A DNA stretch of 64,000 nt from Chitinophagales bacterium (GTDB lineage Bacteria > Bacteroidota > Bacteroidia > Chitinophagales > JADIYW01): contig JAMLHI010000003.1 in assembly GCA_023957235.1 (NCBI GenBank), forward strand, positions 343,371 through 407,370, read 5' to 3'. The notes under the pieces are model-generated. The model was not told where the DNA came from, made no database searches, and worked only from the letters and a program-made list of their open reading frames with translations. Of this stretch, positions 987 through 18,246 are shown in pieces. Numbering within the stretch: the first letter of the stretch is position 1; the number at the start of each line of letters is the position of its first letter. A program made the position numbers and the translations under genes.

Positions 987-1662
987 ATTTATACTTTAAC
1001 AGATCTATAAAAGTAGGAAAGATGACACTAAATTTCCCTCCGCTACCTTTACCAAAAACCCTAGGATAATGTGTTATGCTAAGTTCCTCACATTTGGTAT
1101 TCATTTGTTTTAGCTTTAGAAAAATTTCGGCATGTATAAATGCGGATGAGCTGTTTAAACTTATCTTTTCTAGTGTATTTCTTTTAACTAAAAAAATACT
1201 ATTGACATCTTTCACTCGCATTTTTGCTGCAATTGAAATCAAAGTATTATACGTCTTTGACACAAAACGTCTATAAAAATTGTCACTCCTTCTGTTTCTT
1301 ATAGCTATTACATAATCACTATCGGTGTGAACGAAGTCTAGTAGTTTTTTCACACTATCAGAACGAAATTGATTGTCACCGGATAGGTATAAAACATAAC
1401 CTGTCTTAGGAGTAGTTATTGCTTCTCGTATGGTGTAACCAAAGCCCATATTGCTCTCATGAATGACACATTGAATTCTCGGATATTTTTGGGATAATTT
1501 TTGAATAACACTTGCAGTATCATCTTGACTACCATCATCAATGAGAAGAAATGATATATTATCGCCTATACAACCTTCCTGAAATAAATCATTAACAAGC
1601 TCTTGTATAGCATACATATCATTGTATACCGCTATGCTGATAGTTATCGTTGGGTTATTCAC
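976..1662 (-). CDS. GT2 family glycosyltransferase (DPM1-like)
   Basis: This 228-residue GT-A fold enzyme has an N-terminal TISIAVYND strand, the nucleotide-binding LLIDDGSQDDT motif near residue 40, and an SGDNQ segment at the DxD position. That is the layout of dolichyl-phosphate-mannose-synthase-like GT2 proteins, which move a sugar from an NDP donor to a polyprenyl phosphate or a glycan. It has no C-terminal membrane domain, only a hydrophobic, basic tail. Its start overlaps the upstream GT2 stop by 4 bp, so the two are translationally coupled. The acceptor and sugar are unknown. Confidence 0.85.
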   Translation of the reverse strand: MNNPTITISIAVYNDMYAIQELVNDLFQEGCIGDNISFLLIDDGSQDDTASVIQKLSQKYPRIQCVIHESNMGFGYTIREAITTPKTGYVLYLSGDNQFRSDSVKKLLDFVHTDSDYVIAIRNRRSDNFYRRFVSKTYNTLISIAAKMRVKDVNSIFLVKRNTLEKISLNSSSAFIHAEIFLKLKQMNTKCEELSITHYPRVFGKGSGGKFSVIFPTFIDLLKYKFRL

Positions 1663-2366
1663 GATTGCTTTGGAAATTTCAATACAATAAGGTACAATTT
1701 AAACAGCTCATACATAGCTTTTTTTAATGTTTTCCAGCTTCCACCTTTAGCTTTTCCATATACTCTTTGATGATATTGAGAAGGATAATCTATATGTACA
1801 TATCCTCTTTTAATAAGCTTGGCGGTAATTTCAGACTCAACTAATGAACTATTTAACTCTCTAAATTCAGGTTTTATTTGATGCTTTCTATATACCTTTA
1901 TCCAATTAACATCTGAGATATCTATCTTTAAAAAATATCTATTGAATAAGGTATTCATTTTCGTTAAAAAGCCTCTATACCAATCGTAATTATTTTGAAC
2001 TCGATAAAAAGTTACAAATTCATTTTCTAAAAATGCACCTACTTGTGCTAATTCCTTTATGTCAAATTGACCATCCCCAGGAACTGCACAAATATAATCT
2101 CTAGTAGCATTGTGATAGCCTGTATTCAATGCATTACCTATACCTTTATTTTTGGGTATATTTATGATTTTTAAGTTTGAAAACTTCCCTTCAAATTGAT
2201 TAATTTCACGTGCTGTATCATCTGTACTTCCATCATTTACAATAATAATTTCCGAATTATTGTAAGTGGAATTTTGCAAAAAACTGATAGTGTTTTGAAT
2301 CACTTTCGTGATATTTCCCTCTTCATTATAACAGAAAATTATTATACTCCACTCCATTCTATACAA
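1659..2366 (-). CDS. GT2 family glycosyltransferase
   Basis: This 235-residue GT2 enzyme shows WSIIIFCYNEE at the N-terminus, IIVNDGSTDDT near residue 45, and PGDGQFD in the DxD position, again close to dolichyl-phosphate-mannose-synthase-like proteins. The paralogue 976-1662 overlaps it by 4 bp, so both probably act in one pathway. The start used here reads MYRMEWS; the methionine three codons later is equally possible. The tail is lysine-rich and hydrophobic and may touch the membrane. It is divergent from the chimeric oxygenase locus at 2516. Confidence 0.83.
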   Translation of the reverse strand: MYRMEWSIIIFCYNEEGNITKVIQNTISFLQNSTYNNSEIIIVNDGSTDDTAREINQFEGKFSNLKIINIPKNKGIGNALNTGYHNATRDYICAVPGDGQFDIKELAQVGAFLENEFVTFYRVQNNYDWYRGFLTKMNTLFNRYFLKIDISDVNWIKVYRKHQIKPEFRELNSSLVESEITAKLIKRGYVHIDYPSQYHQRVYGKAKGGSWKTLKKAMYELFKLYLIVLKFPKQS

Positions 2367-2515: not shown

Positions 2516-3767
2516 ATGCGGGACAAAGTTTCAAAGACGAAAAATATAATGATACAGTTCGTGACAAAGGGTATATTATTTTAAATCACAAAACTGATAA
2601 TATTTCGGAGGATATCATGAAAGTATATTATAGATATGCTAATGAGAATGTCAATCATGGATTTAATACTAATCATTTTAGTTATAATAAAAAATACAAA
2701 GAAGAAGTATTAAAACTGGCTAACAATATCTTTTACAAAACTTTGCTCACTTATTCAACGATTACAAAGTTTGCTTTGCCAACTTCATGATAAAAACTCC
2801 AGGAGACAATCATGTACTACTTGTTCATGCGGATTGGGTTTATTTAGATGAGCAAAAACACACTTGTATCTCTTTATGGATACCTGCAATCGATATTAAT
2901 GAGAAAAATGGCACTTTCGGAGTTATTCCACAATCTCATCTTTGTATGAAGAATTTGAAAAAAAATGGATTTTTCGTGGTCGATTTATTAGATGAACAAA
3001 ATCTTGAAAAGTTAAGAGATATTTACAAGCAGCACCATCTAAATATGCCTCAACACTTTTATTCCACCTCCTTTTTACAAGATGAATTACAACGAAAAAC
3101 TATAAGTCAAGAAATACAGGCTATTGTACGTTATAAAATTAATTTGCTGCTACAAAATCACCAAGAACTTGGAGCTGTGTTTTTAGTAAAACCTAGCGGT
3201 GAAAATACAGCTATGCCTATACATCAAGACTGGATAGTCGCAGAAGAACCAGAGCATTATTCTATTACAGCATCGATTTTACTACATGATACTACTGTCC
3301 AAAATAGTGCGATTACAGATTTACCTCAAAGTCACAAACTAAGTACAGGGTTACGCTCTCCAAGTTTGTTGGATCCTCTGAAAGATATTAAAGATACAGC
3401 GGCTACGATGATTCAAACTCTTGAAATGAAAGCCGGGCAAGCATTTATTTTTTCACATGCGCTGATTCATGCGTCACATGCTAATCAATCAGAAAATAAC
3501 AGAATAGCTGTTGCCTATGGAGTCTTGCATCAAGATACAGAATTGGTCTATTATCACAAGCCTAGCAATGGAGCTAAAGTTCAAAAATTATCTATTCCAA
3601 AAGACTTTTTTATCAGCTATCCCAAACCAGGAGAACAACCTGAAAATTCTACGTTAATTAAAGAGTTTGATTACGATGAAAAAGCAATGGGCATTGATGA
3701 GTTTAATCAATTTTACCGATTAAATCAATCCACTTTTTTACAGAAAGTAAAGGCTTGGTTCAACTGA
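2516..3767 (+). pseudogene. Chimeric, frameshifted PhyH-like oxygenase (fusion of two paralogues)
   Basis: The 5' part (2516 to about 2945) resembles the gene at 12263-13129 and the rest resembles the gene at 11392-12252; those two genes are neighbours in the same relative order on the other strand. Reading from the ATG at 2516, the first part needs one base restored at a T run near 2529-2531 and one at an A run near 2737-2740. After that the frame is open to 3767, and an internal ATG at 2787 would give 326 residues. The junction is near 2943-2960, where the 12263-type half loses its distal His and joins the 11392-type domain close to its start. The second half keeps H146, D148, H228 and R239, but the usual WxPLxD...NG stretch has changed (ASILLHD...NS), which suggests relaxed constraint. 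Confidence 0.75.
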
Positions 3768-3777
3768 GCGTCTGAAG

Positions 3778-4623
3778 TTATTTAAGTCTCAAACGTTTTA
3801 AAACTTTAATTAAAAAACCTTTTGGTTCTGATGTAGGAGCTACTTCTTTTTGTTTTTCAGCATATCTCACTATTCGATTTAACTTCAAGCTTTTAGGTCC
3901 TTCAAAAATATTTCCATATAGGAAAAAATCTGTATTAGATTCATATTCTTCAATATCCCCATTCTCATTTTTATGATAATAATACATCTGTGCTCCTTCT
4001 GGTATGATTCCAAATACACAGGCTAAACGAATTTCATCTGTATGATTTTCAGGAGAGGCATGTATTAGACGATGGTCATAAATTAATGCTTCTCCTGCTT
4101 TCATCCTTAGACTTAGCATGTCTTTCCATAAATATTCTTCTTTTTCAGGATATGCAAATGGAATATTGGCAGAACGATAATTAAAATCCCACAAATGACT
4201 GCCTGGTTCTATCATTAAAGCACCATTGTTTTCGTTCAAGTCCACAAGAGGCACCCAGATATTGAAAGAGCGATATACTGTTTCATCTACTATGTTCCAA
4301 TCTTGGTGAGGTACCAAAGCACCCTTTGCTCCTTTGCCTTTAGCTATATAAGAACCTCCTAAAGGATTGCAATTTTGGAAGTATTGGTCGATGCCTTTTT
4401 GAAACTTCTCTTTGATAAAATCATTCATTTTCATTCTGAAAGCGATATCACTCACATGTGCAGTTGCATACATACCTTCATGACCTTGAGGATGATTTTC
4501 ATAGTAAAAACTTTTTAGTTCAGATACAGTCTGCTCATCTAAAAAAGGAACAATAACGTAGCCTTTTTTAAGAAGCTGAATATCTAATGTATTGTCTTTT
4601 AATATTTCTTGATGAGTAGTCAT
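3778..4623 (-). CDS. PhyH family Fe(II)/2-oxoglutarate oxygenase
   Basis: This 281-residue protein has the double-stranded beta-helix active site of phytanoyl-CoA-dioxygenase-like enzymes: iron ligands H106 and D108 (VPHQDW) and H188, then R199 ten residues on for the 2-oxoglutarate carboxylate. The family signature IWVPLVDLNENNGAL and EPGSH lies between them. Such enzymes hydroxylate (or otherwise oxidise) small molecules, lipids or carrier-bound substrates. A Pro/Ser/Glu linker leads to a basic amphipathic tail (FLIKVLKRLRLK). It is the last gene of the minus-strand oxygenase run, 22 bp after the preceding gene. The substrate is unknown. Confidence 0.85.
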   Translation of the reverse strand: MTTHQEILKDNTLDIQLLKKGYVIVPFLDEQTVSELKSFYYENHPQGHEGMYATAHVSDIAFRMKMNDFIKEKFQKGIDQYFQNCNPLGGSYIAKGKGAKGALVPHQDWNIVDETVYRSFNIWVPLVDLNENNGALMIEPGSHLWDFNYRSANIPFAYPEKEEYLWKDMLSLRMKAGEALIYDHRLIHASPENHTDEIRLACVFGIIPEGAQMYYYHKNENGDIEEYESNTDFFLYGNIFEGPKSLKLNRIVRYAEKQKEVAPTSEPKGFLIKVLKRLRLK

Positions 4624-4645
4624 TTACTAGTCTTTTTATAATATT

Positions 4646-5464
4646 TTATGCCCAAAAATAGATTTTACCGTCCTTACCTTTTGCAATAAAACACCCAATG
4701 GTTATCCTAGGTTGAGCACCTCCTATCTTGTTAATTCCATGCCATATTTGCGCAGCCCTAAAAAATATAGCCTCCCCATTTTGTGGTGGAAAAGATTGAT
4801 GTGTTATGTTCTCTACACCTCGCTTTTTAAACATAGCTCCATCTATATCATGTCTATCTTCATAGGATTCATGCCCAATTAAAATAGGTAAATCGTCCCA
4901 TTCTTTATTAAAAAGAATTAACTCACCATGCTCATTTGGAGCTTGAAGAACCAATAAGAAAGAAAGTGCATTTTTCAAATCCATGATACTTTCCATCCAC
5001 TCAGTCATAGCTGGATTGAGTTGAGGTATAAATGCATTTTCACAATGTATATCTATACCATTTTTTTTAGCATGAAGTATTCTGCAATTAAATCTAGAAA
5101 ACTCTAAGTTGCCATAATGGATAGGGAACAACTCTACTCCTAAAGCTTCTTCAAGTTTATTTTGCAATAAATCTATCAACCTTTTGTGCTTGTTTTCAAA
5201 ATCTTCACTCGAAGTAAAATAGGGATGCGAGTTATCAAAGCTCGCCTTATCATGTATTGTAGAATAAGGAAATGGATAAAAATAACCATCGTCCATTCTA
5301 ACGTTATAAGTACTATCCTGAGGATGCGATTTCAATTTAGCTAGAAACAAGCTGATTTCATCTTCTGAAAGAAAACTTTGAATACTACTAATATCTATTT
5401 CCTTATCAAAGAATCTTTGAATTTTGATATAATAATTAGATATGTCAGAATCAGAATAATTCAT
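4646..5464 (-). CDS. Putative Fe(II)/2-oxoglutarate oxygenase, divergent (HxE type)
   Basis: This 272-residue protein is not an obvious PhyH member. It shows H140-C-E142 and H242 followed ten residues later by R253, the spacing expected for the distal iron His and the 2-oxoglutarate-binding Arg of a cupin-fold oxygenase. Glu in place of Asp in the first motif occurs in a minority of such enzymes. The gene starts directly after the stop of the gene at 5465-6382 and is followed 22 bp later by another PhyH gene, so it is embedded in the operon. It lacks the basic C-terminal helix of its neighbours. The assignment rests on motif spacing and context; the substrate is unknown. Confidence 0.6.
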   Translation of the reverse strand: MNYSDSDISNYYIKIQRFFDKEIDISSIQSFLSEDEISLFLAKLKSHPQDSTYNVRMDDGYFYPFPYSTIHDKASFDNSHPYFTSSEDFENKHKRLIDLLQNKLEEALGVELFPIHYGNLEFSRFNCRILHAKKNGIDIHCENAFIPQLNPAMTEWMESIMDLKNALSFLLVLQAPNEHGELILFNKEWDDLPILIGHESYEDRHDIDGAMFKKRGVENITHQSFPPQNGEAIFFRAAQIWHGINKIGGAQPRITIGCFIAKGKDGKIYFWA

Positions 5465-6382
5465 TTATAGAAGATTCAATTTAGTAAGTAAATTTTTAAA
5501 GAAACTCTTTCTTTCTTTAGGATAGGTATAAGCAAAACCTGCTTCTTTTGTGTTTTTTTCTATCGTATCCAAAAGCTTTGTTTTTTCCAACTGTGGAGAT
5601 TGATAGGATTTAAAACCAACACTCTCCCCTAAATAAGGCCTTTGACCAATATCATTAGCAAAATCATTAAAAGATATTAGAAAGTCATCATCCATTGCAA
5701 AAACTTCCAACTCATCTTTTTCTGGAACTTTATAGTGAAAATACATTTGAGCTCCTTTAGTTTTTACACCAGCAGTAATTGCTTTTCTAATAGTATCACT
5801 TTTGTTGGGGGCTGAACCGTGAATGACACTTTGATTGAGTATGACAGCTTCACCAGCTTTGACATACATAGGTATCGCAGCTTGAAGTACTAGTTCATCA
5901 TGACCAGAAAAGAAAAAAGGGATAGTCGGCGAACGTAAAGTTTTGATCTTGTCATAATGAGTGCCTGGCACTATATGCAAAGCTCCATTTGTCTCATTAA
6001 TATCTTGTAATGGCACCCAACAGTTGAGTGCTACAGCTTCCTCTTCATTGACAATCGTCCAGTCTTGATGGATGGGTAAATCTTCCCCAAATCCAGGAAC
6101 TTTATATAAAAAAGCTGCTCCAAAAGGAGTGAAATTAGTGAAGTATTTCTCATAAGCTTTTTGAAATACATCCACAATCTTATCACTTGCTTCTTTCTTA
6201 TATTTCAAGTCTTGACTATAGCTTCCACTAAAAAATCCGCCTTGTTGTAGATTTGGGTGTAGGTCATCGAATAGTTTATTGAGATATGCGATATCTTCTT
6301 TTTCAAGAAAAGACAAAATCAAGAAGCCCTGTTTGTCAAAAGCTGTTTGATGTTCATCAGATTGAAAGATACGTTGACTCAT
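5465..6382 (-). CDS. PhyH family Fe(II)/2-oxoglutarate oxygenase
   Basis: This 305-residue protein has H105 and D107 (LPIHQDW), H188 (VIHGSAPN) and R199, a complete Fe(II)/2OG set with the usual H-x10-R spacing. CWVPLQDINETNGAL and VPGTH mark the PhyH core. After the catalytic domain, about 55 residues lead to the tail SFFKNLLTKLNLL. Its start overlaps the stop of 6379-7332 by 4 bp, so the two are translationally coupled. The oxidation substrate cannot be inferred. Confidence 0.85.
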   Translation of the reverse strand: MSQRIFQSDEHQTAFDKQGFLILSFLEKEDIAYLNKLFDDLHPNLQQGGFFSGSYSQDLKYKKEASDKIVDVFQKAYEKYFTNFTPFGAAFLYKVPGFGEDLPIHQDWTIVNEEEAVALNCWVPLQDINETNGALHIVPGTHYDKIKTLRSPTIPFFFSGHDELVLQAAIPMYVKAGEAVILNQSVIHGSAPNKSDTIRKAITAGVKTKGAQMYFHYKVPEKDELEVFAMDDDFLISFNDFANDIGQRPYLGESVGFKSYQSPQLEKTKLLDTIEKNTKEAGFAYTYPKERKSFFKNLLTKLNLL

Positions 6383-7332
6383 GACGCAAATACTTTAAAT
6401 AGTTTTTGATACCATTTTAAAGAGTCAGAACTAGAACTTACTTCTTCTTTTTTCGGTGCAACATTTTCTATCAGAGCTCTCGCATTCGATTTTTCAAAGT
6501 GTGTATTCAAAAACTGTATATCTATTTTAGGAAAATCATAATCCACCAGACCTAAAGATTTTCCTATTTTAGGTCTATCTCTAATATTAGCGCCAAACTG
6601 CTCAAAGTTGAGCATAAAGTCTTTGTCTTGCTCAAAAACTTCTATCTTATTTGGAGTTTCTCCATCCCAGTAATAAGTTCTAAACTCTGTATCCTGATGA
6701 GTAAAATAGGTATTTGTGACAATCCTTGGTCGGTCTGAAAAGTTAGGTGGAGAAAAGTGAATGATACTTTGATCAAAGAAAACTGCTTGTCCAGCTTTGA
6801 TAAGTACTGGTTGCAGATAATCTATAATCTCATTCATCACGGGTGAGAAAAACTCAGGAATAGAACTCCCTCTATAAGTCGGGAACAATCTATGACTACC
6901 CGGTAAAACAAATAAAGCACCATTCTCTATTGTCAAATCTGTCAGTGGTACCCAAATATTGATGCCAGTATATTTACTTTCATCAACCAGGCTCATGTCT
7001 TGATGTACACACATTCCACTTTTAGGACTGGGAGTTTTCACAATAAAAGCTCCATTCATCACACGAAAGTTTTGACAGTAATGTTCTATATGTTTTTGAC
7101 AGATTCGTCTAATCTCACTGTCTGCTACTTTTCGGTATTCATGGTCAGATGAAAATGTACTAGGGAAAAAGCCTAAATCTTCCTCAGGGTGCATTTTAAA
7201 ATACAATGCTTCTAATTCAGCTATCTCTTCAGGCGTATAAAATGGTAAAATCACATAGCCATTTTTTTCAAAATCAGCTTGAATCTTATCATCTTTAAAG
7301 ACTTTGAGCATTTTATCTGGGAATTGAAACAT
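6379..7332 (-). CDS. PhyH family Fe(II)/2-oxoglutarate oxygenase
   Basis: This 317-residue protein has iron ligands H110, D112 and H192 and the 2OG-binding R203. IWVPLTDLTIENGAL and LPGSHR form the family core. The residue after HQD is Met, where most paralogues here have Trp, so the pocket differs. A Lys/Glu/Ser-rich linker ends in SLKWYQKLFKVFAS, an amphipathic basic tail. The gene lies 8 bp after the GIY-YIG gene and overlaps the next PhyH gene by 4 bp. Confidence 0.85.
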   Translation of the reverse strand: MFQFPDKMLKVFKDDKIQADFEKNGYVILPFYTPEEIAELEALYFKMHPEEDLGFFPSTFSSDHEYRKVADSEIRRICQKHIEHYCQNFRVMNGAFIVKTPSPKSGMCVHQDMSLVDESKYTGINIWVPLTDLTIENGALFVLPGSHRLFPTYRGSSIPEFFSPVMNEIIDYLQPVLIKAGQAVFFDQSIIHFSPPNFSDRPRIVTNTYFTHQDTEFRTYYWDGETPNKIEVFEQDKDFMLNFEQFGANIRDRPKIGKSLGLVDYDFPKIDIQFLNTHFEKSNARALIENVAPKKEEVSSSSDSLKWYQKLFKVFAS

Positions 7333-7340
7333 AGGCTAGC

Positions 7341-7952
7341 TTATTTTTCTAATTTTTCGGTTTTATGGTCATTGAGCTTGTCGAAATGACTATTTGTTCC
7401 TTCGACATTTGTATCCGTTCCTTCGACAAGCTCAGGCACTAGTATCTGGTCATTGAGCCTGTCGAAATGACCGTAACCTCGTGTGGTTTTAACATTAGTG
7501 TTCGTGCCTTCGACAAGCTCAGGCACCAGTGTCTGGTCATTGAGCTTGTCGAAATGACTATTGTTATTTGTGGTTTCGATAGGTGATACAGTGAGCTTGT
7601 CGAACTGCTCAACCACTAGTTCGCTGGACACTGAGCCTGTCGAAGTGTCGAAATGACTATCTCTCGGAAACTGCGTATAATTCTTTGATAACAATGGCAG
7701 TTCTTTTGGTTTGTTATTTATTAAAGCTTCTTTTTTCTTTTTACTCCAACCTTGTATTTGTTTCTCTCTATAAAAAGCATCATCAATTCTTAAAAACTCC
7801 TCATAATAAACTAACTCTATAGGTAATCTTTTACTTGTGTAATTTGCCCCACATCCACTTTGATGCTCAGAGAGCCTTCTTTCTATATTGTTAGTACTTC
7901 CAGTATAGTAACTCCCATCTCTACAAAGTAATATGTACACGTAACTGTTCAT
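7341..7952 (-). CDS. GIY-YIG nuclease-domain protein with repeat-encoded tail
   Basis: Residues 1 to about 85 are a small GIY-YIG domain of the UvrC-like/YhbQ type: the YVYILLCRDGSYYTGSTNN segment, ERRLSEH with the conserved Arg, then the family end motif REKQIQGWSKKKKEALI. The remaining 115 or so residues are translated from REP-like DNA repeats, giving recurring SHFDKLND and LVPELVEGT blocks. The nuclease domain looks intact. It sits between two oxygenase genes, 8 bp before the next one. A role in DNA processing at the surrounding repeats is an inference by analogy with REP-associated transposases. No role in the oxygenase pathway is suggested. Confidence 0.8.
   Translation of the reverse strand: MNSYVYILLCRDGSYYTGSTNNIERRLSEHQSGCGANYTSKRLPIELVYYEEFLRIDDAFYREKQIQGWSKKKKEALINNKPKELPLLSKNYTQFPRDSHFDTSTGSVSSELVVEQFDKLTVSPIETTNNNSHFDKLNDQTLVPELVEGTNTNVKTTRGYGHFDRLNDQILVPELVEGTDTNVEGTNSHFDKLNDHKTEKLEK
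7366..7665. repeat. REP-like palindromic repeat block, part 1
   Basis: The block has several copies of two complementary half-sites, TTCGACAAGCTCA and TGAGCTTGTCGAA (some with GCCTGTCGAA), about 20-25 bp apart, so each pair can form a hairpin. Examples lie at 7371-7386, 7421-7469 and 7507-7556. The block lies inside the 3' part of the GIY-YIG gene and stays in frame there. It is typical of short interspersed palindromic elements rather than CRISPR, because spacers are themselves similar and irregular. Confidence 0.85.
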
Positions 7953-8261
7953 TTAATTTGATTTTTTAGCAGTGCTAGTGGTTTCGAGATTCGTACTTGT
8001 GCTTTCAATTTTCTTGTCTGTGCCTTCGACAGGTGATACAGAGAGCTTGTCGAAATGCTCAACCACCAGTACCCGGTCATTGAGCTTGTCGAAATGACTG
8101 TTGTTATCTGTGGTTTCGATTTTCGTGTCCGTGCCTTCGACAAGCTCAGGCACCAGTTCTCTGAACAATGAGTGCTTCGACTGAGCTCTGCAACCACTTG
8201 TCGAAGTGTCGAAATGCTCAGGCTCCAGAGAGTATTTGATATTTTTAGAAGACGAAAACAT
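7953..8261 (-). other. Short ORF made mostly of REP-like repeats, coding status doubtful
   Basis: An open frame of 102 codons fills the gap between the oxygenase gene ending at 8271 and the GIY-YIG gene. After about 16 unique residues (MFSSSKNIKYSLEPEH) it consists of the same FDKLND and LVPELVEGT blocks as the GIY-YIG tail. No domain is recognisable. Openness probably follows from the repeat sequence, so translation is doubtful, although it would keep translation running through the operon. Confidence 0.3.
8016..8226. repeat. REP-like palindromic repeat block, part 2
   Basis: This has the same half-sites as the block at 7366-7665, for example near 8018-8060, 8080-8096 and 8134-8150. One degenerate stretch (8165-8215) has half-sites in mixed order. 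The GIY-YIG coding domain (7670-7952) lies between the two blocks, so the nuclease gene is flanked by its repeats. Confidence 0.8.
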
Positions 8262-8270
8262 ATCGAAAAT

Positions 8271-9323
8271 TTATGCTCTTATCAATCTTTTGACAAGACC
8301 TTTTAATTTACCCACAAAAGATACATTCCCTTCTTGAGAATCATTGCTTTGTTGCTTATCACTTTGACTTTCCTGATTACTTCCATATTGGTTATTACCC
8401 ATAGAAGCCATGTATTGGTAAAACCCTTGTAGATATTGATCTAAAACAGGATCTTTTTGTAAACCAGCATCTATTGCCATTTTCTCCAACTCTTCTTTGC
8501 TGCAGATATGAGGGTCATTAATGACAGTGCCCGCTTTTTCATATCCCTCAGGAAACTTACCCTCTGCTTGCATACCGTATAAAATCTTATTACTATATTT
8601 AAAGAAATAATCTCTATCGACATGATAAGCTTGAAGTTGCTGTGGTTCAGAACCAGGTATAACATAATAGTGCAATAATGGAGCCTCTTTTTGCGTGATT
8701 CCAATTCCAGCTCCAATTCTAGCTACTTTGGAATTGTTAGGTGGAGAAGCATGTAATGTCTTATTTTCAAAAATTAATGATTGACCTGCCTTCATGGGGA
8801 TGAGTTTCATAAAAGGAAACAAGTCCATGCCATGTGCCTGAAAAGGTGTTTTATATCCTGGAGATGGGGAGGCTCGAGGTCCAGTAAACCATTTGTGACT
8901 ACCTGGCAAAACTGCCATAGCTCCATTGTTAATGTCAGTATCTTGAAGTGCTGTCCAAACGGTCACAGAATTGTATTCGACATCATTTGTAAATGACCAA
9001 TCCTGGTGTGGAGGGACAAAACTATTAACACGAGGTTCTTTTACAACAAATGAGGCAGTAAACATTTTGCAGGGAACAAAGTATTTTTCTGCTTTTGGAA
9101 AGATAACAGCTTCTAATTTGTTAATTACTCCACTCACAAAATCATAACTTCTATTATCCATACTCACATGAAATCCATACTCATTGACATGGTCATTGTT
9201 TAATTCACTATAGTATTGACTTAAATCTTGAACATCTTCTGAACTTAACATGTCTTCAATAAGAAGATATCCATTTTCTTCAAAAAATGCTTGGTGTTCT
9301 GGGTTTGAGAATAAAGGTCTCAT
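8271..9323 (-). CDS. PhyH family Fe(II)/2-oxoglutarate oxygenase with long tail
   Basis: At 350 residues this is the largest paralogue. Ligands H106, D108 (PPHQDW) and H191 with R202 are all present, and LPGSHKW marks the core. The catalytic part ends near residue 300. A Gln/Ser/Asn-rich linker of about 30 residues follows, then the basic amphipathic tail FVGKLKGLVKRLIRA. That design suggests a flexible tether to a membrane or partner. It lies 21 bp downstream of the gene at 9345-10310. Confidence 0.85.
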   Translation of the reverse strand: MRPLFSNPEHQAFFEENGYLLIEDMLSSEDVQDLSQYYSELNNDHVNEYGFHVSMDNRSYDFVSGVINKLEAVIFPKAEKYFVPCKMFTASFVVKEPRVNSFVPPHQDWSFTNDVEYNSVTVWTALQDTDINNGAMAVLPGSHKWFTGPRASPSPGYKTPFQAHGMDLFPFMKLIPMKAGQSLIFENKTLHASPPNNSKVARIGAGIGITQKEAPLLHYYVIPGSEPQQLQAYHVDRDYFFKYSNKILYGMQAEGKFPEGYEKAGTVINDPHICSKEELEKMAIDAGLQKDPVLDQYLQGFYQYMASMGNNQYGSNQESQSDKQQSNDSQEGNVSFVGKLKGLVKRLIRA

Positions 9324-9344
9324 ATTTATATTTTTTAAAATAAA

Positions 9345-10310
9345 TTAAATAGGTTCTGATACTATATTTGAAGAATGATGAGCAATCAATTTAGAAATAG
9401 AAAGTTTTGGAATTTCATTTTCTTTCATAAGCTGAGTAAACTCATCTTTATTTAATGCTTTTATATTCCAATTCACTTTCTCTTTCAATTCGCCAGTTTC
9501 TGGTCTACATGTACAGTCGTGAAAGAAATTTTTAAATGTGAGTAGATAATCATCAGCTTGTTCAAAAATTTCTATTTCATGGTTTTTTTGAGTAACATCT
9601 TTATAACATGAAATCAACTTTGCTTCTTGAGGGAAAATTCCTGACATGACTACGATTCTTTCAGCGTCAGAGTTATTAGGGGGAGAATAATGGACAAGTC
9701 TATTATCAAAAATTAAAACATCTCCAGCCATTAAATTGATGGGTTGTAAATAGTGTCTTGCCTCATCATGAACACTTTGGAAAGGTTCGGGGAAGGAAAT
9801 TCCTCTATAAGGAGAGAATAATTTAAAACTTCTTGGAATGACTGTTAAGCAACCGTTTTCAATGGTAGTATCTTGTAATGGTATCCAAACTGATAAAGGT
9901 GAAAATTTCATTTCATCTAGTCCTGTAGAATCTTGGTGCAAACCAAATTCACTATCTGGTCCATTGACTTTCACGATAAAGGAATTTAAAACTATCTTAT
10001 ACTCATCAAACAATTTGTTATAAGTATCTTTCAATATGCTTCCAATTGTTTCATGGACTTTTGCTCTATAGTTCAAATCTCCAGAATAAACACTATAAAA
10101 CATTCCTCCTTTTTGAAGATTGAACTTGTGTGTTTCATGATAAAGTTCTCTTAGTTGATTTAATGTATGCTCATCTAATCTTGTTGGAATGCTATATCCT
10201 ATAGAATCTACTTCGTCACGTATATGATTGTTTTTTATAACAAAATGAGGAATTGGACTCCAGCTTTGAGAAGGTTTATTATTAAAAATATTTTTTAAAG
10301 TATTCAACAT
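9345..10310 (-). CDS. PhyH family Fe(II)/2-oxoglutarate oxygenase with N-terminal helix
   Basis: This 321-residue protein has H125, D127 (LHQDS), H207 and R218, a full Fe(II)/2OG set. VWIPLQDTTIENGCL is the core signature, but the usual PGSH is changed to PRSFK. Unlike its neighbours, the short amphipathic segment is at the N-terminus (MLNTLKNIFNN), followed by a Pro/Ser-rich stretch. The C-terminus has a different, less basic end. It lies 6 bp after the stop of 10317-11228. Confidence 0.85.
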   Translation of the reverse strand: MLNTLKNIFNNKPSQSWSPIPHFVIKNNHIRDEVDSIGYSIPTRLDEHTLNQLRELYHETHKFNLQKGGMFYSVYSGDLNYRAKVHETIGSILKDTYNKLFDEYKIVLNSFIVKVNGPDSEFGLHQDSTGLDEMKFSPLSVWIPLQDTTIENGCLTVIPRSFKLFSPYRGISFPEPFQSVHDEARHYLQPINLMAGDVLIFDNRLVHYSPPNNSDAERIVVMSGIFPQEAKLISCYKDVTQKNHEIEIFEQADDYLLTFKNFFHDCTCRPETGELKEKVNWNIKALNKDEFTQLMKENEIPKLSISKLIAHHSSNIVSEPI

Positions 10311-10316
10311 AAATTA

Positions 10317-11228
10317 CTAAGATATTATTTTATCAAATGTCAATTCAAGAAGACCTCTCTCGTGAACAGCTTTCCTCTTCATCATTTTTTTATATTTTTC
10401 ATAGTCAATATCTACTTTTTTATAGTTGAAAGTATCCACCAATTTTTGTCCTTTGGGTTTCAGCCATGGGTGAAAATTCATATAAAATTCTTGATCGACT
10501 TCGTATACTTTTATCTTTTTCTGACCATCTTCTTCTGTCATGTGATAATGAATTGAAGGAACTCTAGGCGGTATCATAATAAGCTGAATTGCTAACCTTA
10601 ATCCGTCAGTCATGTTAGGTGCAGAATAATGTATAATGCTATCGTCTAAAATAACTGCTTGACCAGCTTTTATGGACATAGTGACCATGTCATTTTTTAT
10701 GATGTCTTCTTTGAGATGTTCTAGCTCCCATGGGATAAGTGGGCCTCTTACTGGAGCAAATCGTTTGTGACTGCCAGGGACGACTTGTAGGGCTCCATTC
10801 TCTTTGAAACTATCAACTAATGGACACCATACAGAAATTGATGAATATTTCCATTCGTCAACAAAAGCCCAGTTTTGATGCATAGGCACCTCACCTTTAT
10901 AGGAGGTTTTATGAATATAATTTGCAATAATTGGCTGAAAATCAACTAAATATTTGTCAACTAAAGGTTTGAATTCTTGAACTACTTTGTTGAAAACTTT
11001 TTTCTTATATTCTACACTTGCATCTATAAATGTGAATTCATAAGTTATTTCTTTAGGTTTCTCAAATTTGATGTCATAGTCTTCTTTGTTACCCTTTCGT
11101 TCAGATTCCATATCAAAATATTGTTTAATAAAGTAATCAACTTGTTCTTTTGATAATAAATCAATGATAACATATCCATCTCTGTCAAATTTCTTCTGAA
11201 TTTCAGAATCATGAAACATTCCTTTCAT
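10317..11228 (-). CDS. PhyH family protein with altered iron site (HQN)
   Basis: This 303-residue paralogue retains the distal H200, R211, WCPLVDSFKENGAL and VPGSHK, but the first metal motif reads H117-Q-N119 where all the others have HxD. The DNA at about 10870-10880 reads CAT CAA AAC on the coding strand, so Asn is real in this sequence. Loss of the carboxylate ligand may change or abolish normal hydroxylation. The change is not the Gly/Ala seen in related halogenases. The gene lies 6 bp upstream of 9345-10310 and after a 163-bp gap. Confidence 0.8.
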   Translation of the reverse strand: MKGMFHDSEIQKKFDRDGYVIIDLLSKEQVDYFIKQYFDMESERKGNKEDYDIKFEKPKEITYEFTFIDASVEYKKKVFNKVVQEFKPLVDKYLVDFQPIIANYIHKTSYKGEVPMHQNWAFVDEWKYSSISVWCPLVDSFKENGALQVVPGSHKRFAPVRGPLIPWELEHLKEDIIKNDMVTMSIKAGQAVILDDSIIHYSAPNMTDGLRLAIQLIMIPPRVPSIHYHMTEEDGQKKIKVYEVDQEFYMNFHPWLKPKGQKLVDTFNYKKVDIDYEKYKKMMKRKAVHERGLLELTFDKIIS

Positions 11229-11391
11229 TTTAAGTTTTTCTTAGGTTTGGCAAATGTAATAACTTGTATTATTATAATAAATATAATACTTAATTGCGTA
11301 TTTATTTTGTTAAGAAATCTTTTTAACATAAAAATAGACATTATTGTCCTATTTTATTATATTCTAATTTTGAAATTACATTTGAATATAA

Positions 11392-12252
11392 TTATCTATT
11401 AAAAATCTCTTTTAGTTTGCCCCAAAAAGTAACTGCCTTGATACCATAAAACTTTATGAATTCTTCTTTTCTGACGGGAGTTTCATTATAATCTATTTCT
11501 TCAATAAATATAGAATCTTTAGGTTGCTTGCCTGGTTCAGGATAGTTAATGAAGAAGTCTGTAGGTGTGGATAGTTTTTGCAACTTAGTATCCTCTGCGG
11601 ATTTATGATAGTATATTAAATCAGCATCTTTATGTGCAAATCCATACGCTACTGCTATTCTGTTATTTTCTGATTGATTAGCATGTGAAGCATGAATCAG
11701 CGCATGAGTAAAGATGAAGGCTTGACCAGATTTTATTTCAAGTGTTTCCATTCTTTCAGCAACTAATTCTTTGATATCTTTTAGAGGGTCAGCTAAACTA
11801 GGTGAGCGAAGTTTATTACTCAAATAATGACTTTTAGGTAATACTGTAATGGTTCCATTTTGAATTGTAGTGTCTTGTAGTGGAATCCATGCAGTGAAAG
11901 AATGGAATTCAGGTTCTTCGACAACTGTCCAGTCTTGATGGATGGGCATAGCCGTATTTTGCCCAGTGGGTTTAATTAGAAATACAGCACCTAATTCTTT
12001 GTGATTTTGCAATAAGTTATTGATTTTAGGTCTTACTATCTCTTGAATTTCTTGACTAATCTCTCGTCTTTCTTCTTTGCTTGCTAAAAAAGAGGTAGAA
12101 TAAAAATGCTCAGGAGAGGGAATAGAATGCTTGTTAAAAATATTTTTAAGAGCATCTGTATCAGATTTTTCTAATAGATTGATGACAGAATAACCATTTT
12201 TTTCTATTTCATCGAATAGTTGTTTATCAACAAAAACATTTTTCATAAACAT
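11392..12252 (-). CDS. PhyH family Fe(II)/2-oxoglutarate oxygenase
   Basis: This 286-residue protein has H105, D107 (MPIHQDW), H187 (LIHASHAN) and R198. AWIPLQDTTIQNGTI and LPKSH form the core. The tail is FWGKLKEIFNR. It is the closest visible relative of the second half of the chimeric locus at 2516-3767, for example in the shared stretches EHFYSTSF/QHFYSTSF and ALIHASHANQSENNRIAVAYG. It starts 10 bp after the gene at 12263-13129. The 163 bp downstream are AT-rich with no gene. Confidence 0.86.
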   Translation of the reverse strand: MFMKNVFVDKQLFDEIEKNGYSVINLLEKSDTDALKNIFNKHSIPSPEHFYSTSFLASKEERREISQEIQEIVRPKINNLLQNHKELGAVFLIKPTGQNTAMPIHQDWTVVEEPEFHSFTAWIPLQDTTIQNGTITVLPKSHYLSNKLRSPSLADPLKDIKELVAERMETLEIKSGQAFIFTHALIHASHANQSENNRIAVAYGFAHKDADLIYYHKSAEDTKLQKLSTPTDFFINYPEPGKQPKDSIFIEEIDYNETPVRKEEFIKFYGIKAVTFWGKLKEIFNR

Positions 12253-12262
12253 TGCTTTTATT

Positions 12263-13129
12263 TTATCTTTTAATAAACTGCATCACTTTTTCCAAATAGG
12301 ACTTTTTTACCTTTTCTTCTTCCAAATGATAGTAATGGATGATTTCTTCATCACAGATTTGTTGTAGATATTCTACCTCTTCATCAGCTTGAACTTGTTC
12401 AGGTATTTGGTGTGCATGATAGTTTAAGAAAAAAGTATTATCTAAATGCTTGTATTTGCATATTTTGTTATTCAGAAAAGAGTAATGAAAAATCTCCGCT
12501 TCTTTAGGAACGATTACTATATTAATAGCAATACGAGTTTGATTAGTAGTGTTAGGTAAGGAGTAATGAAGTAATCTCAAATCATAAATAATAGCTTCCT
12601 TATTTCCGATGGGTAGCAATTTTCCTCTCTTCTCTTTGAGTAAATTATCGTATTTCCTATAAGAAGATACGATTTCTGGACCTCTCATTTTTTCAGCTAG
12701 TTGATGTGAATGAGGTATGATTCCAAAGGCTCCATTCTCGTAATCCGTTTGTATCGCAGGCATCCATATAGATATTGCTGTATATTGAGTTTCATCGACA
12801 TAAGCCCAGTCTGCATGGACGGGAAGTAAAGCATCGCTACCAGGTGTTTTAATCATCAAATTTGAAAAAAGAACTTTATAGTCTATAAATAAATGAGTGA
12901 AGTATTCATTGAATAACTCGATGCCCATTTCTGCAATTTCTTTTTTATAAGCTTTGTTAAAGCTAAAGTGTGTAGTGTTAAATCCTAGATGAGTGCATTC
13001 ATCTTGATACTTTATACCAGCTTCTTGAAGCTTTTTTCCAATATCTTGTGTGTTATGAGCATATAGGACATGTCCATCTTTTAAAAATTGAGTGTTTAAA
13101 TGAGCGTCTCTGAAAACTTGCCTTTTCAT
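12263..13129 (-). CDS. PhyH family Fe(II)/2-oxoglutarate oxygenase, first gene of the array
   Basis: This 288-residue protein has H105, D107 (LPVHADW), H188 (LLHYSLPN) and R199. The core is IWMPAIQTDYENGAF with IPHSH, somewhat diverged from the other paralogues. The C-terminal tail is SYLEKVMQFIKR. It is the counterpart of the first half of the chimeric gene at 2516. As the 5'-most gene of the run it should follow the operon promoter; a -7-like TATATTTG lies at 13276-13283 on this strand, without a clear -33 element. Confidence 0.85.
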   Translation of the reverse strand: MKRQVFRDAHLNTQFLKDGHVLYAHNTQDIGKKLQEAGIKYQDECTHLGFNTTHFSFNKAYKKEIAEMGIELFNEYFTHLFIDYKVLFSNLMIKTPGSDALLPVHADWAYVDETQYTAISIWMPAIQTDYENGAFGIIPHSHQLAEKMRGPEIVSSYRKYDNLLKEKRGKLLPIGNKEAIIYDLRLLHYSLPNTTNQTRIAINIVIVPKEAEIFHYSFLNNKICKYKHLDNTFFLNYHAHQIPEQVQADEEVEYLQQICDEEIIHYYHLEEEKVKKSYLEKVMQFIKR

Positions 13130-13343: not shown

Positions 13344-14555
13344 TCAGCATTTGTCCTTAAACTCTTGATTTATCCAGTTCCAAAAATCCCATGTGTTATC
13401 ACCATATCTATGATATATATGAACAAAATCAGGAAAAGAATACTTTTTCTGATTTTTTGTGATAGCACCATCAGCTTCTCTATACCCAAAAAGTTTGTTG
13501 TTGTCATCGCAGATATAGTTCCATTTCTCATTTAGAGTGGGGTGATTTTGTAGATTGTATTTCCAAGCTGTTGCAATTAAAGTACCTTGGTCTCTAGTTT
13601 TCCATAGCGGATCATTAAATATCTCCATGGTCAATTCATACCATGTATCTAAAAAACTGTGAGATGTATCTCCAAATAAGAACACTCCACCATTCCAGTG
13701 TTGCCAATTAGCATTTTTTACTTTTATATCAAACTTGTTATCGATATATGCTTGAAGATGATCGCATTGGTTGATCCATATTGATCGTCCTTTCTTATCT
13801 TTTATTGTATTACTGAAAATATTATATCTAAACCCAAATTTTTTAGAAACTTTTTTCCAATTGACTTGTGTCATGATGGGTTGGTCATCTGTATTATACC
13901 AAATTTTATTTTTACGGTTAAACTTATAATCTTTATCTAATTGAAAGATAGGCCAACTAAAAAAAGCTCTTATTCCTGTTTTTAGAAACTCTTTTTTATT
14001 ACCCATGATGAATAACAACCTCCGTTTCAGTATATCTCTTTGCTTTAAAATCTTTTCATCATTGGTCGTTTTGCAATAGTCAAATTGTACAACATAATCT
14101 TTAATAGATTGCATGAGTTTATCATAAGATTCCTGACAACCACAATGAACAGCTGCAGGACTAAAAGCTGGCATTATGCAATGGTCAGCACCAAATCGGA
14201 TAGGAGGGATATATTCTTCAAAAATTGCATCACAGTTTTTTCCAATGGCTAAAATATCGCTGTCCATATACACATACATCTTCCCTTTTGGGAGGTATCT
14301 ATGTAGTGAGGTTTTTAGAAAAATAGAAGCTTGGTGATGATCAAAGTGTTTAGGTGTTTTGATGTCTATCACATATTCATGTTGAATAGCAATCTCATTT
14401 CTACTGCTATCAGTAATGACGATTTGAGGGAGTTTTGTATTCTTTTTAAAAGATTTTAATGAGTGATGTAGTGTGTCTATATGTACTTTGACACCGCAAA
14501 CAACAAACACATAAAACTTATCACTTGTTTGATAAATAGAATCTTTTTCCGACAT
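13344..14555 (-). CDS. Putative nucleotide-diphospho-sugar transferase (GT-A fold)
   Basis: This 403-residue protein has no match I can name precisely. It shows a GT-A-like pattern: an N-terminal strand with FYVFVVCGVKVHIDTL, then YVYMDSDILAIG, where D98-x-D100 fits a metal/nucleotide-binding DxD. A later NGGVFLF and RDQGTLIATAW stretch resembles the acceptor half of GT8-like enzymes. There is no signal peptide or membrane segment. It precedes the oxygenase array on the same strand, 214 bp away, so it may belong to the same pathway. Confidence 0.65.
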   Translation of the reverse strand: MSEKDSIYQTSDKFYVFVVCGVKVHIDTLHHSLKSFKKNTKLPQIVITDSSRNEIAIQHEYVIDIKTPKHFDHHQASIFLKTSLHRYLPKGKMYVYMDSDILAIGKNCDAIFEEYIPPIRFGADHCIMPAFSPAAVHCGCQESYDKLMQSIKDYVVQFDYCKTTNDEKILKQRDILKRRLLFIMGNKKEFLKTGIRAFFSWPIFQLDKDYKFNRKNKIWYNTDDQPIMTQVNWKKVSKKFGFRYNIFSNTIKDKKGRSIWINQCDHLQAYIDNKFDIKVKNANWQHWNGGVFLFGDTSHSFLDTWYELTMEIFNDPLWKTRDQGTLIATAWKYNLQNHPTLNEKWNYICDDNNKLFGYREADGAITKNQKKYSFPDFVHIYHRYGDNTWDFWNWINQEFKDKC

Positions 14556-15078: not shown

Positions 15079-15252
15079 ATGGTAATGGTACTTAAAAAAG
15101 GAGCTGACTCTGAATCCATCCGTAAATTAGGGGAAAAGATACGCGAAAGAAAAAAAGGTAAACGAATGAATACAAAGGAATTTGTTGGTATTCTTAATCT
15201 TGAAGCCGATGCCCTTGATATTCAAAAGAGACTAAGAGATGAATGGCAATAA
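15079..15252 (+). CDS. vapB: Probable VapB-type antitoxin
   Basis: This 57-residue ORF (ATG at 15079; a second in-frame ATG at 15085) overlaps the PIN-domain gene by 14 bp, the classic antitoxin-toxin arrangement. The protein is charged and helical (GEKIRERKKGKRMN), ending QKRLRDEWQ. VapB-like antitoxins bind and mask the PIN nuclease and repress their own promoter. The call rests on size, order and overlap more than on a DNA-binding motif. Confidence 0.65.
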   Translation: MVMVLKKGADSESIRKLGEKIRERKKGKRMNTKEFVGILNLEADALDIQKRLRDEWQ

Positions 15253-15610
15253 AATCTTTATTGACACAAATATAGTTCTTTATCTATTTGGTGGAGATCT
15301 AACAATAGCAGAGTTTTTAGACAATAAGGAAATATACATATCTATTATTACTGAAATAGAATTATTAGGGTTTAAAAATTTAGATTTCGAGGAAGAAACA
15401 AAAATTAGACAGTTTATAAATAAATGCTTTGTAATTCCTCTTAATGATTTTGTTAAAGAACAAGCGATTGAATATCGAAAAAACTATTCTCTTAAACTAC
15501 CTGATTGTATTGTTGCTGCCTCTGGTGTCTATCTAGACTTGCCAGTCATGACATCGGACAAAGAGTTTGAAAAGCTTAGAGAATTGGATTTAATTCTGTA
15601 TAAAAAATAA
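15239..15610 (+). CDS. vapC: PIN-domain ribonuclease toxin (VapC-like)
   Basis: This 123-residue PIN domain has D9-T-N11 at the N-terminus (FIDTNIVLYLF), an acidic residue in IITEIEL near 39-41, D89 in LPDCIVAAS, and D107 in MTSDKEF. These are the acidic metal-binding residues of the family. VapC toxins cleave RNA, often tRNA or rRNA, when freed from VapB. It forms a two-gene module with the overlapping ORF at 15079 and sits between glycosyltransferase genes, so it was probably acquired as a cassette. Confidence 0.85.
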   Translation: MNGNKIFIDTNIVLYLFGGDLTIAEFLDNKEIYISIITEIELLGFKNLDFEEETKIRQFINKCFVIPLNDFVKEQAIEYRKNYSLKLPDCIVAASGVYLDLPVMTSDKEFEKLRELDLILYKK

Positions 15611-15619
15611 CTTTCAACA

Positions 15620-16453
15620 TCACTTAGTCCTACTCCTAATCACTCGACCTACATACTTCAACATATAAAAAATGGAGCTGGCTTTTATTCGGTATTTTAT
15701 TTTCGATTTAAAATCAGAAATTGCAAAGCCCAATTCTGCCTCTTGATACAGTTGCCCTAATACACTATCCGAAATAAAATGTTCCTTGGATATATTGAGT
15801 GTCCTAAACTCTTCGTTCATCCAATGTATTGCTGACCATGTTTCAGGATATACTGAATGCAAAAGTAAGGGGCAGACTGTAGTCCATCTGTCTTCGTTTG
15901 AAAATGTATAAACATACTGGGTGAGGTTTTCTTCATGAATATGCTTATTCAGAATATTGATAGGGAGCATCCAATCACTATTGTCAGCATTGACCGAATC
16001 TTTTGCTTCTTCATAACACTTTTTCATTAATGAAGAACCTTGTGGAACGTGCATAATATTACCAACTATATAATTCTCATCTTCCTTGCTTTTCCTAAAA
16101 ACATAAGGTGTATCCAACTTAAATTGCTTTAAACAGGTAACATCCATATCCACCCACCATCCTCCGTATAGGTAAAGTAGACGATATCTAAAGATATCGG
16201 AAAAGCCGGCGTAGCTGCCTTGACCATGACCAAACTGATTAGGGTATTTATATTTGAAAACTTGATTTTCGGGAATGATTTCACGTGCATCTTTAACTTC
16301 TAATCCAGCAATATATGAATAATGCGTAAAGTCATCATAAGTCCATAAAATAAAATGATAGCCATGTTTTAAAAACGAAAGAATTGTCAACTTTTCCATG
16401 GAGGAAAGTTCGCCTTTTATCCAAAGTCCATGTACTGTGTTGCGTGTATCCAT
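15620..16453 (-). CDS. Glycosyltransferase with DXD motif (GT32-like)
   Basis: This 277-residue protein has GFSDIFRYRLLYLYGGWWVDMDV, the hallmark of Gly_transf_sug/GT32 enzymes; D102-x-D104 binds the metal and nucleotide sugar. These enzymes add sugars to capsule, glycolipid or glycan acceptors. The C-terminus ends in a basic, hydrophobic segment (MLKYVGRVIRSRTK) like the oxygenase tails. It lies 16 bp downstream of the asparagine synthetase gene and is the last gene of the run 20256-15620. Confidence 0.85.
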   Translation of the reverse strand: MDTRNTVHGLWIKGELSSMEKLTILSFLKHGYHFILWTYDDFTHYSYIAGLEVKDAREIIPENQVFKYKYPNQFGHGQGSYAGFSDIFRYRLLYLYGGWWVDMDVTCLKQFKLDTPYVFRKSKEDENYIVGNIMHVPQGSSLMKKCYEEAKDSVNADNSDWMLPINILNKHIHEENLTQYVYTFSNEDRWTTVCPLLLHSVYPETWSAIHWMNEEFRTLNISKEHFISDSVLGQLYQEAELGFAISDFKSKIKYRIKASSIFYMLKYVGRVIRSRTK

Positions 16454-18239: not shown

Positions 18240-18246
18240 ACTCTAC

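Follow-up and report, generated by a model that had tools for sequence, protein, structure and literature searches.

An expanded array of PhyH-type oxygenases in a Chitinophagales genome appears to be a rearranged form of a conserved six-enzyme module linked to glycan genes

The window analyzed here, a 64,000-nucleotide stretch of DNA from a Chitinophagales bacterium, carries eight intact PhyH oxygenase genes on the minus strand, six of which fall into six separate, well-separated orthogroups (N, A, B, C, D, and E) in a tree of 445 PhyH domains. Judged by phylogeny and gene order, the window is a scrambled, expanded, lineage-specific version of a conserved six-enzyme module that is common to dozens of mostly uncultured aquatic bacteria and is found almost only in MAGs. 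The reading that we favor, at a probability of roughly 0.6, is that the array is a rearranged and expanded oxygenase module that tailors one glycan or glycolipid, which the linked glycosyltransferases would make and Wzm/Wzt would export. The link to glycan genes is visible in the gene neighborhoods themselves; the substrate, the reactions, and the order of action we infer.

Results

The array and its neighbors in the window are as follows.

976-1662 and 1659-2366, minus strand: two GT2 glycosyltransferases, at the array's downstream end (PF00535, E 5e-18 and 8e-24)
about 2516-3767, plus strand: chimeric PhyH pseudogene facing the array (tblastn, blastn)
3778-4623, minus strand: PhyH oxygenase, orthogroup E, HQDW (PF05721, E 4e-21; clade E support 0.997)
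4646-5464, minus strand: WelO5-family Fe/2OG enzyme with a hydroxylase-type metal motif, HCE (PF22814, E 2e-34)
5465-6382, minus strand: PhyH oxygenase, orthogroup D, HQDW (PF05721; clade D support 0.998)
6379-7332, minus strand: PhyH oxygenase, orthogroup C, HQDM (PF05721; clade C support 0.961)
7341-8261, minus strand: GIY-YIG gene and repeat-rich ORF, an insertion between B and C (PF01541, E 1e-18)
8271-9323, minus strand: PhyH oxygenase, orthogroup B, HQDW (PF05721, E 9e-25; clade B support 0.848, 73 members)
9345-10310, minus strand: PhyH oxygenase, accessory orthogroup, HQDT/HQDS (PF05721)
10317-11228, minus strand: PhyH oxygenase, orthogroup N, HQN replacing HxD (clade-wide Asn)
11392-12252, minus strand: PhyH oxygenase, orthogroup A, HQDW (PF05721; clade A support 0.993 with 36 members, 0.745 with 47)
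12263-13129, minus strand: PhyH oxygenase, array-specific, HADW (PF05721, E 1e-9; outside the core orthogroups)
13344-14555, minus strand: GT-A-like protein (linkage)
15620-16453, minus strand: GT32-like glycosyltransferase (PF04488, E 1e-6)
16470-18239, minus strand: AsnB-type glutamine amidotransferase (PF00733, E 3e-75; TIGR01536)
18247-19308, minus strand: UbiA-family prenyltransferase (PF01040, E 2e-14)
19315-20256, minus strand: SAM methyltransferase, MT (PF02353/PF08241)

The coordinates, strands, and families originally predicted for the array stand, and PF05721 was found in all eight proteins above its curated cut-off (E 1e-9 to 9e-25). Read in array order from 3778, the metal motifs are HQDW, HQDW, HQDM, HQDW, HQDS, HQNW, HQDW, and HADW, each accompanied by the distal histidine and the arginine; as predicted, seven of the eight have the full HxD...H and R set, and the eighth, 10317-11228, retains H and R but reads HxN. 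Most neighboring genes are separated by -4 to 22 bases; the exceptions are a single gap of 163 bases and an insert of 930 bases. This agrees with the mostly tiny gaps and overlaps first described. The inserted element at 7341-8261 has 20 matches in its own genome, all of them, other than the locus itself, short dispersed repeat copies. A ninth PhyH locus does face the array and is a chimeric pseudogene, as had been proposed: a frameshifted fragment resembling 12263-13129 (tblastn, two frames) runs into one that resembles 11392-12252 of orthogroup A (61% identical over 270 aa; blastn, 72% over 640 nt).

The divergent HxE oxygenase at 4646-5464 is likewise present, and its family is corrected to WelO5. 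Its HCE motif, which recurs in WelO5-family proteins of two other loci, departs from the HxG halogenase motif. The array is also larger than was first described, since PhyH and WelO5 genes continue outside the window at C11:323.7-324.6 kb and 331.0-338.3 kb. Counted over about 47 kb, the intact PhyH domains of this genome number 14, accompanied by three WelO5-family enzymes (two of them with the halogenase-type HCG motif) and three Asp_Arg_Hydrox enzymes. A profile search confined all PF05721 matches of the 3.0 Mb genome to one 32 kb stretch, so their clustering is not due to chance. The two upstream WelO5 relatives (L002:1923-2741 and L002:7473-8330) are both HCG, and one was aligned onto the HVG of WelO5; polytopic membrane proteins of ~550 aa that also lie upstream had no Pfam or PDB match.

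In other species the order of the module is fixed as Wzm-N-A/B-C-D-E-MT-Wzt, and fusions of A-B, N-B, C-D, B-C, and E-MT are often seen, the last in five loci. Among the 63 N-bearing loci, N-A-B-C-D-E is unbroken in 19, while N-A-B-C-D occurs in 6, N-B-C-D-E in 7, and B-N-C-D-E in 7. Each orthogroup is usually present once per locus and has its own residue fingerprint (for example, HQDW in 51/51 members of clade D and HQDM in 51/55 of clade C), which bears out the original view that the members differ and are not interchangeable copies. The accessory enzyme at 9345-10310 clusters with 16 others from 17 loci (support 0.964). From the tree, the six orthogroups are ancient, older than the divergence of the species that carry them. 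All six are under strong purifying selection (dN/dS about 0.01 to 0.15 in close pairs of relatives), and catalytic residues are retained in nearly all of the 452 PhyH domains surveyed; decay of the core is thereby ruled out, as the original prediction that the array is not a graveyard had it. Neither varying arrays lacking glycan genes nor relaxed selection in most members was seen.

Orthogroup N is set apart by its metal site. HxN in place of HxD was found in 70/70 members, none with aspartate, and it occurs once per cluster; the remaining ligands for iron and 2OG, two histidines and an arginine, are retained. The asparagine of 10317-11228 aligns with the aspartate of PHYHD1 and phytanoyl-CoA 2-hydroxylase (PHYH), and HxN is absent from 18/18 readable unlinked PhyH domains. 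The scan for HxN used an HQN-containing peptide, but the 15 clade members that did not match the peptide have asparagine in 15/15, and the trait also appears in arrays recovered with no query other than the PF05721 profile. The HQNW motif, which the original prediction had set apart from the seven complete members, is thus neither a sign of decay nor a one-off mutation, and is a conserved trait of the whole clade. We know of no characterized Fe(II)/2OG enzyme with a His-Asn-His iron facial triad, and a limited search of open-license literature, in which absence is weak evidence, returned no description of HxN triads or of PhyH arrays.

The AF2 model of 10317-11228 (pLDDT 90) has EvdO2 as its top Foldseek match (E 2e-11) among many PhyH folds. 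Relatives that act on sugars or glycosides rank high in this search (EvdO2, HygX, AviO1, and KanJ), but the closest solved folds also include the non-sugar enzymes EctD, SnoK/SnoN, SptF, and GriE, and so the fold does not fix the substrate. The orthogroup C profile matches MysH, PHYHD1, EvdO2, and SnoK. The HxN protein also matches TIGR04324, the sporadic carbohydrate cluster 2OG-Fe(II) oxygenase family of NCBIfam, at E 1e-4, far below the curated cut-off; it shares the carbohydrate-cluster context with that family and is not a member of it.

Other species show the proposed linkage to glycan, UbiA, and MT genes as well, and more strongly than was first apparent: the module usually lies right after Wzm. 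In the 63 N-bearing loci, many of them on cut contigs, Wzm is present in 46, and directly before the module in 43; 32 have MT, 28 have Wzt, and 18 have UbiA. The module loci are tightly linked to genes for Wzm, Wzt, MT, KASIII, GT2, GNAT, aminotransferase, and UbiA, and across them Wzm and Wzt occur with glycosyltransferases, as in clusters for ABC-exported glycans of the O-antigen type. The Wzt proteins scanned (364-427 aa) have a C-terminal extension without a Pfam carbohydrate-binding domain match. In other loci an MT gene stands between orthogroup E and Wzt, and alignment shows that the MT of the window belongs to that family. Orthologues of the GT32-like protein adjoin PhyH arrays in two other genomes (64-72% identity), and the GT-A-like protein, which has no Pfam or NCBIfam match, belongs to a family that adjoins UbiA and MT in three loci and lies near UbiA in a fourth. 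In the genome of the window itself, Wzm/Wzt genes at C11:324.7-326.8 kb and C10:188.9-190.8 kb are not beside the core array, being about 20 kb off or on another contig, and a second locus carries UbiA, MT, Wzt, and Wzm without PhyH.

Discussion

If the array is a glycan-tailoring module, its enzymes would all work in the cytoplasm on a single lipid-linked substrate, sequentially or assembled in complexes, ahead of its export. A different C-H oxidation might fall to each oxygenase, either a hydroxylation or the formation of an oxygen bridge as in orthosomycins, and MT may methylate the hydroxyl that E produces, a step that would account for the fusion of E with MT. Orthogroup N probably binds iron with asparagine replacing aspartate, leading to a different reaction outcome. 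PhyH and WelO5 enzymes can cyclize, desaturate, epimerize, and halogenate in addition to hydroxylating; an acidic residue in HxE or HxD is typical of hydroxylases, and HxG leaves a site for halide in halogenases. The HCG enzymes of the WelO5 type, found with several modules, could add halogen in some lineages, and the linked ones make candidate aliphatic halogenases from beyond the phyla that are the usual sources of natural products. Neither UbiA (18/63 loci) nor MT (32/63) is proven essential.

The multiply hydroxylated, prenyl-linked product of the original prediction is one form that such a molecule might take, and the oxygenases could instead act on the prenyl part itself, with UbiA prenylating, MT C-methylating, and the PhyH enzymes polyhydroxylating the chain to give a polyhydroxylated meroterpenoid glycolipid. 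The UbiA and MT genes adjoin each other in the window and in more than eight other loci; the UbiA profile weakly matches DGGGP synthase and archaeal UbiA; and the substrate of PHYH is a methyl-branched isoprenoid acid, which it hydroxylates. The MT model lies near TleD and geranyl diphosphate C-methyltransferase, but it is also near the sugar O-methyltransferases RebM and AtmM, and the fold search does not separate O- from C-methylation. We consider this route unlikely given that UbiA is found in far fewer loci than Wzm, and that fusions of E with MT and of UbiA with a glycosyltransferase (in one locus) exist but a UbiA-PhyH fusion was not found. In an alignment of 22 homologues, the UbiA protein has 17 invariant columns, including N62, D66, D70, D196, and D200, and its PDB profile matches are chlorophyll synthase, UbiA, and DGGGP synthase. 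A phosphoribosyltransferase of the arabinogalactan type, which was considered for it, is not among these matches.

A further reading, in which the oxygenases modify an acyl chain that the linked AMP-ligase, ACP, and KASIII produce, so that the lipid becomes multiply hydroxylated, in some lineages halogenated, and chlorosulfolipid-like in idea, seems quite improbable. These three genes are present in the genome of the window, KASIII-GT2-GNAT lies upstream of Wzm in many loci, and Asp_Arg_Hydrox enzymes, which share their family with LpxO, the hydroxylase of lipid A acyl chains, are present. However, the DegT aminotransferase and GNAT beside KASIII suit N-acylated amino sugars equally well, and WelO5-family genes, found in 8/63 loci, are missing from most. 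A chlorosulfolipid analogue in the strict sense is ruled out, as the cluster has no sulfotransferase and the nearest on the contig is >120 kb upstream. Least credible of all is the view that tandem duplication produced the array as a side effect, leaving enzymes that are redundant and form no ordered pathway. Genomes in the family do differ in copy number, with between 1 and 18 matches each, and the window includes a chimeric pseudogene as well as members peculiar to its lineage, but the extra members surround a stable core whose orthogroups predate species divergence, keep their own fingerprints, and are held by purifying selection. Duplication is contradicted for this core and may account for extras such as 12263-13129.

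Among the closest known systems are the orthosomycin oxygenases EvdO1/EvdO2/EvdMO1, AviO1, and HygX, PhyH-fold Fe/2OG enzymes that occur several per cluster and act on oligosaccharides beside glycosyl- and methyltransferases. The fold match of the HxN enzyme and the orthogroup C profile both lead to EvdO2. In contrast to the orthosomycin oxygenases, the module has six conserved domains in fixed order, an ABC glycan exporter, and one HxN clade, and identity is about 20%. WelO5 carrier-independent halogenases share a family with 4646-5464 and two upstream genes, but they belong to cyanobacterial indole alkaloids, whereas these enzymes are found in Bacteroidota in a glycan context and the window member is HCE. 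PHYHD1 and PHYH share fold and triad layout with these enzymes but have aspartate at the metal-binding position where orthogroup N has asparagine, and no CoA-pathway oxidation genes adjoin the array. In Xanthomonas citri, the PhyH gene XAC3597 (bdp11) of the LPS cluster is among the listed biofilm-defective mutants, with insertions also in wzm and wzt (PMC3130047). It too lies within an ABC-exporter (wzm/wzt) LPS cluster, as a single gene where the window has an array.

Six conserved, ordered, and repeatedly fused oxygenases imply that about six oxidations are programmed into one surface or secreted molecule. Among bacterial glycans and glycolipids such a molecule would stand out as exceptional, and its makers are known mostly as environmental MAGs. 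The array probably contributes to an unusually heavily modified surface molecule through chemistry that has yet to be described. More tentatively, orthogroup N may be an active Fe(II)/2OG enzyme that binds iron through two histidines and asparagine, with an outcome other than plain hydroxylation, in a six-enzyme line that, joined in some lineages by WelO5-type halogenases, makes a new class of heavily oxidized, sometimes halogenated exported glycolipids in uncultured aquatic Bacteroidota. Its 70 natural orthologues raise the question of whether a 2OG oxygenase can run without a carboxylate ligand other than by halide replacement.

Plasmids yielded only PhyH proteins with 26-29% identity. When 149 genomes of the class were sampled without bias, 8 besides that of the window proved to carry arrays, and an HxN gene stands beside Wzm wherever the module reaches Wzm. 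A phylum-wide search with a profile of the HxN alignment recovered one other genome of 395 at E <= 1e-20, which makes the module a rarity in well-assembled genomes.

Results

In the 3.0 Mb Bacteroidota genome, the window spans C11:343371-407370. On its minus strand, eight PhyH genes are intact and a single WelO5-family gene stands among them, in agreement with the original prediction of eight PhyH genes and one divergent oxygenase, and the inter-gene gaps are -4 to 22 bases except for one 163-base gap and one 930-base insert. The ninth, plus-strand locus, which had been called chimeric, is a frameshifted chimera whose pieces resemble two array genes. The window members were borne out, but the predicted set was too small, as the array continues upstream of the window. 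A genome-wide profile search placed every PF05721 match of the genome inside a single 32 kb stretch, and the upstream part holds five further PhyH genes, one of them with two PhyH domains. Two WelO5-family genes, both with an HCG motif, lie upstream as well, together with three Asp_Arg_Hydrox genes (the third, L005:15287-16063, assigned via similarity to the other two), B12 radical SAM genes, Wzm/Wzt, KASIII, AMP-ligase and ACP. About 47 kb contain 14 intact PhyH domains, three WelO5 domains and three Asp_Arg_Hydrox domains.

In a FastTree phylogeny of 445 PhyH domains, six clades (N and A to E) usually contribute one member each per locus.

Array of the window in its order along the minus strand, with tree clades
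12263-13129, minus: array-specific PhyH member
11392-12252, minus: clade A, 47 members, support 0.745 (36 of these at 0.993)
10317-11228, minus: clade N, 70 members, support 0.957
9345-10310, minus: accessory HQDT/HQDS clade, 17 members, support 0.964
8271-9323, minus: clade B, 73 members, support 0.848
7341-8261: insert
6379-7332, minus: clade C, 55 members, support 0.961
5465-6382, minus: clade D, 51 members, support 0.998
4646-5464, minus: WelO5-family gene, HCE motif
3778-4623, minus: clade E, 52 members, support 0.997

In other genomes the genes run Wzm, N, A-B (fused), C, D, E, methyltransferase (MT), Wzt, with the variants B-N-C-D-E and fused N-B; the window has the same orthogroup set, but with A before N and three additional oxygenases. 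Fusions of A-B, N-B, C-D, B-C and E-MT indicate that the encoded proteins act together; some long fused ORFs may be assembly or prediction effects, but the A-B and N-B fusions recur across many species. Selection was gauged in the close locus pairs L037/L038, L068/L071 and L076/L084, where all six orthogroups gave dN of 0.01-0.12 and dS of 0.4-1.2 by NG86 (dS above 1 is rough). Two comparisons from other pairs, L036/L039 for C and L079/L089 for A, were left out for low identity or saturated dS.

The insert is a GIY-YIG gene with a repeat-rich tail, and its short palindromic repeats, of the TTCGACAAGCTCA type, are dispersed across the genome; GIY-YIG genes might aid their spread. A stand-alone PIN-domain (VapC-like) gene lies amid glycosyltransferases at 15239-15610.

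PhyH genes occurred in 13 of 13 family genomes searched (four genera; 1 to 18 matches per genome, differing in make-up), and clear arrays in at least three genera. Orthologues of 10317-11228, used as query against 84,980 species genomes, gave 78 loci, nearly all from uncultured Bacteroidota. Searching 149 sampled genomes of the class with nothing but the PF05721 profile revealed arrays in eight genomes besides our own (5 to 18 matches each); the remaining genomes with any match had one to five. Six of the eight were judged to be also among the orthologue-scan loci, while G610 and G622 came from the profile sample only. Different PhyH and WelO5 clusters, with HCG, HAD and HCE variants, occur in other families of the order (L034 and L035).

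Across 452 PhyH domains, the first histidine is kept in 449, the distal histidine in 447 and the arginine in 444. The third motif position is Asp in 375, Asn in 73 and Gly in two. Asn is found in all 70 members of clade N and Asp in none; one more HxN protein in the tree falls just outside the clade. The orthologue-scan pattern included HQN, but the 15 clade N members that do not match it still have Asn. In G622, which was recovered without that pattern, one HENW gene occupies the usual position, and a second, distant protein has HQNL. None of the 18 readable domains (of 19) from sampled genomes without arrays has Asn at this position.

Two HQGV proteins within a PhyH array of G011, of the same genus (L016:13837-14688 and L019:240-1097), have glycine in place of the metal-binding Asp, which is the halogenase pattern.

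Discussion

Alignment places the Asn of clade N on the Asp that binds iron in PHYHD1 and PHYH. The AF2 model of the HxN protein is confident (pLDDT 90), and a structure search matched it to EvdO2, EctD, SnoK/SnoN, HygX, AviO1, EvdMO1 and KanJ. We infer that Asn binds iron in this clade. A lone HQNW protein of Sphingomonas deserti GL-C-18, 29% identical to the query and with no array nearby, is possibly the HxN protein most readily studied in culture, coming from a named alphaproteobacterial strain.

Most full-length sequences among 34 WelO5-family entries have HCG, a halogenase-type pattern; HCE occurs in window 4646-5464, L035:3174-3998 and L067:16706-17596. The upstream gene L002:7473-8330 has WelO5 structures among its matches (E 5e-15), its HCG aligning with HVG of a WelO5 relative. 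Judged by these motifs, the HCG enzymes may halogenate. Such halogenation, supposing it is present, would be lineage-specific, because no PF22814 match was found in the other sampled genomes of the family.

Many loci have KASIII, GT2, GNAT, GT-A-like and DegT aminotransferase genes before Wzm. UbiA and MT are frequent neighbours, a UbiA-glycosyltransferase fusion exists, and our genome has a second UbiA, MT, Wzt and Wzm set with no PhyH (C10:187-191 kb). Taken together, this gene content suggests that the product is a glycolipid or a lipid-linked glycan. We put at about 0.6 the probability that the oxygenases share an exported glycan or glycolipid as substrate; the oxidised carbons may belong to a sugar, a prenyl or an acyl part, and the prenyl and acyl readings are treated as rivals. 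Oligosaccharide tailoring by PhyH enzymes is established for orthosomycins. A Xanthomonas citri LPS cluster contains a PhyH gene (PMC3130047). In the literature searched, we found no description of a module of six conserved orthogroups flanked by exporter genes or of a conserved HxN clade. These findings open an active-site question, and a proposed new glycolipid pathway, to direct testing.

The second UbiA set (L171:14994-18835) includes no oxygenases and adjoins giant surface proteins. Four polytopic membrane paralogues of ~550 aa (L001:4293-5912, 8062-9750 and 17303-18958; L002:8439-10112), with no Pfam or PDB match, are candidates for a membrane glycosyltransferase-type family; their kin lie near PhyH/WelO5 genes in L035, L068, L071 and L073. 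Upstream of the window, at a distance of about 53 kb, lies one polyketide synthase module (L004:11667-14939; C11:286.7-289.9 kb), which by eye looks KS-AT-ACP-like.
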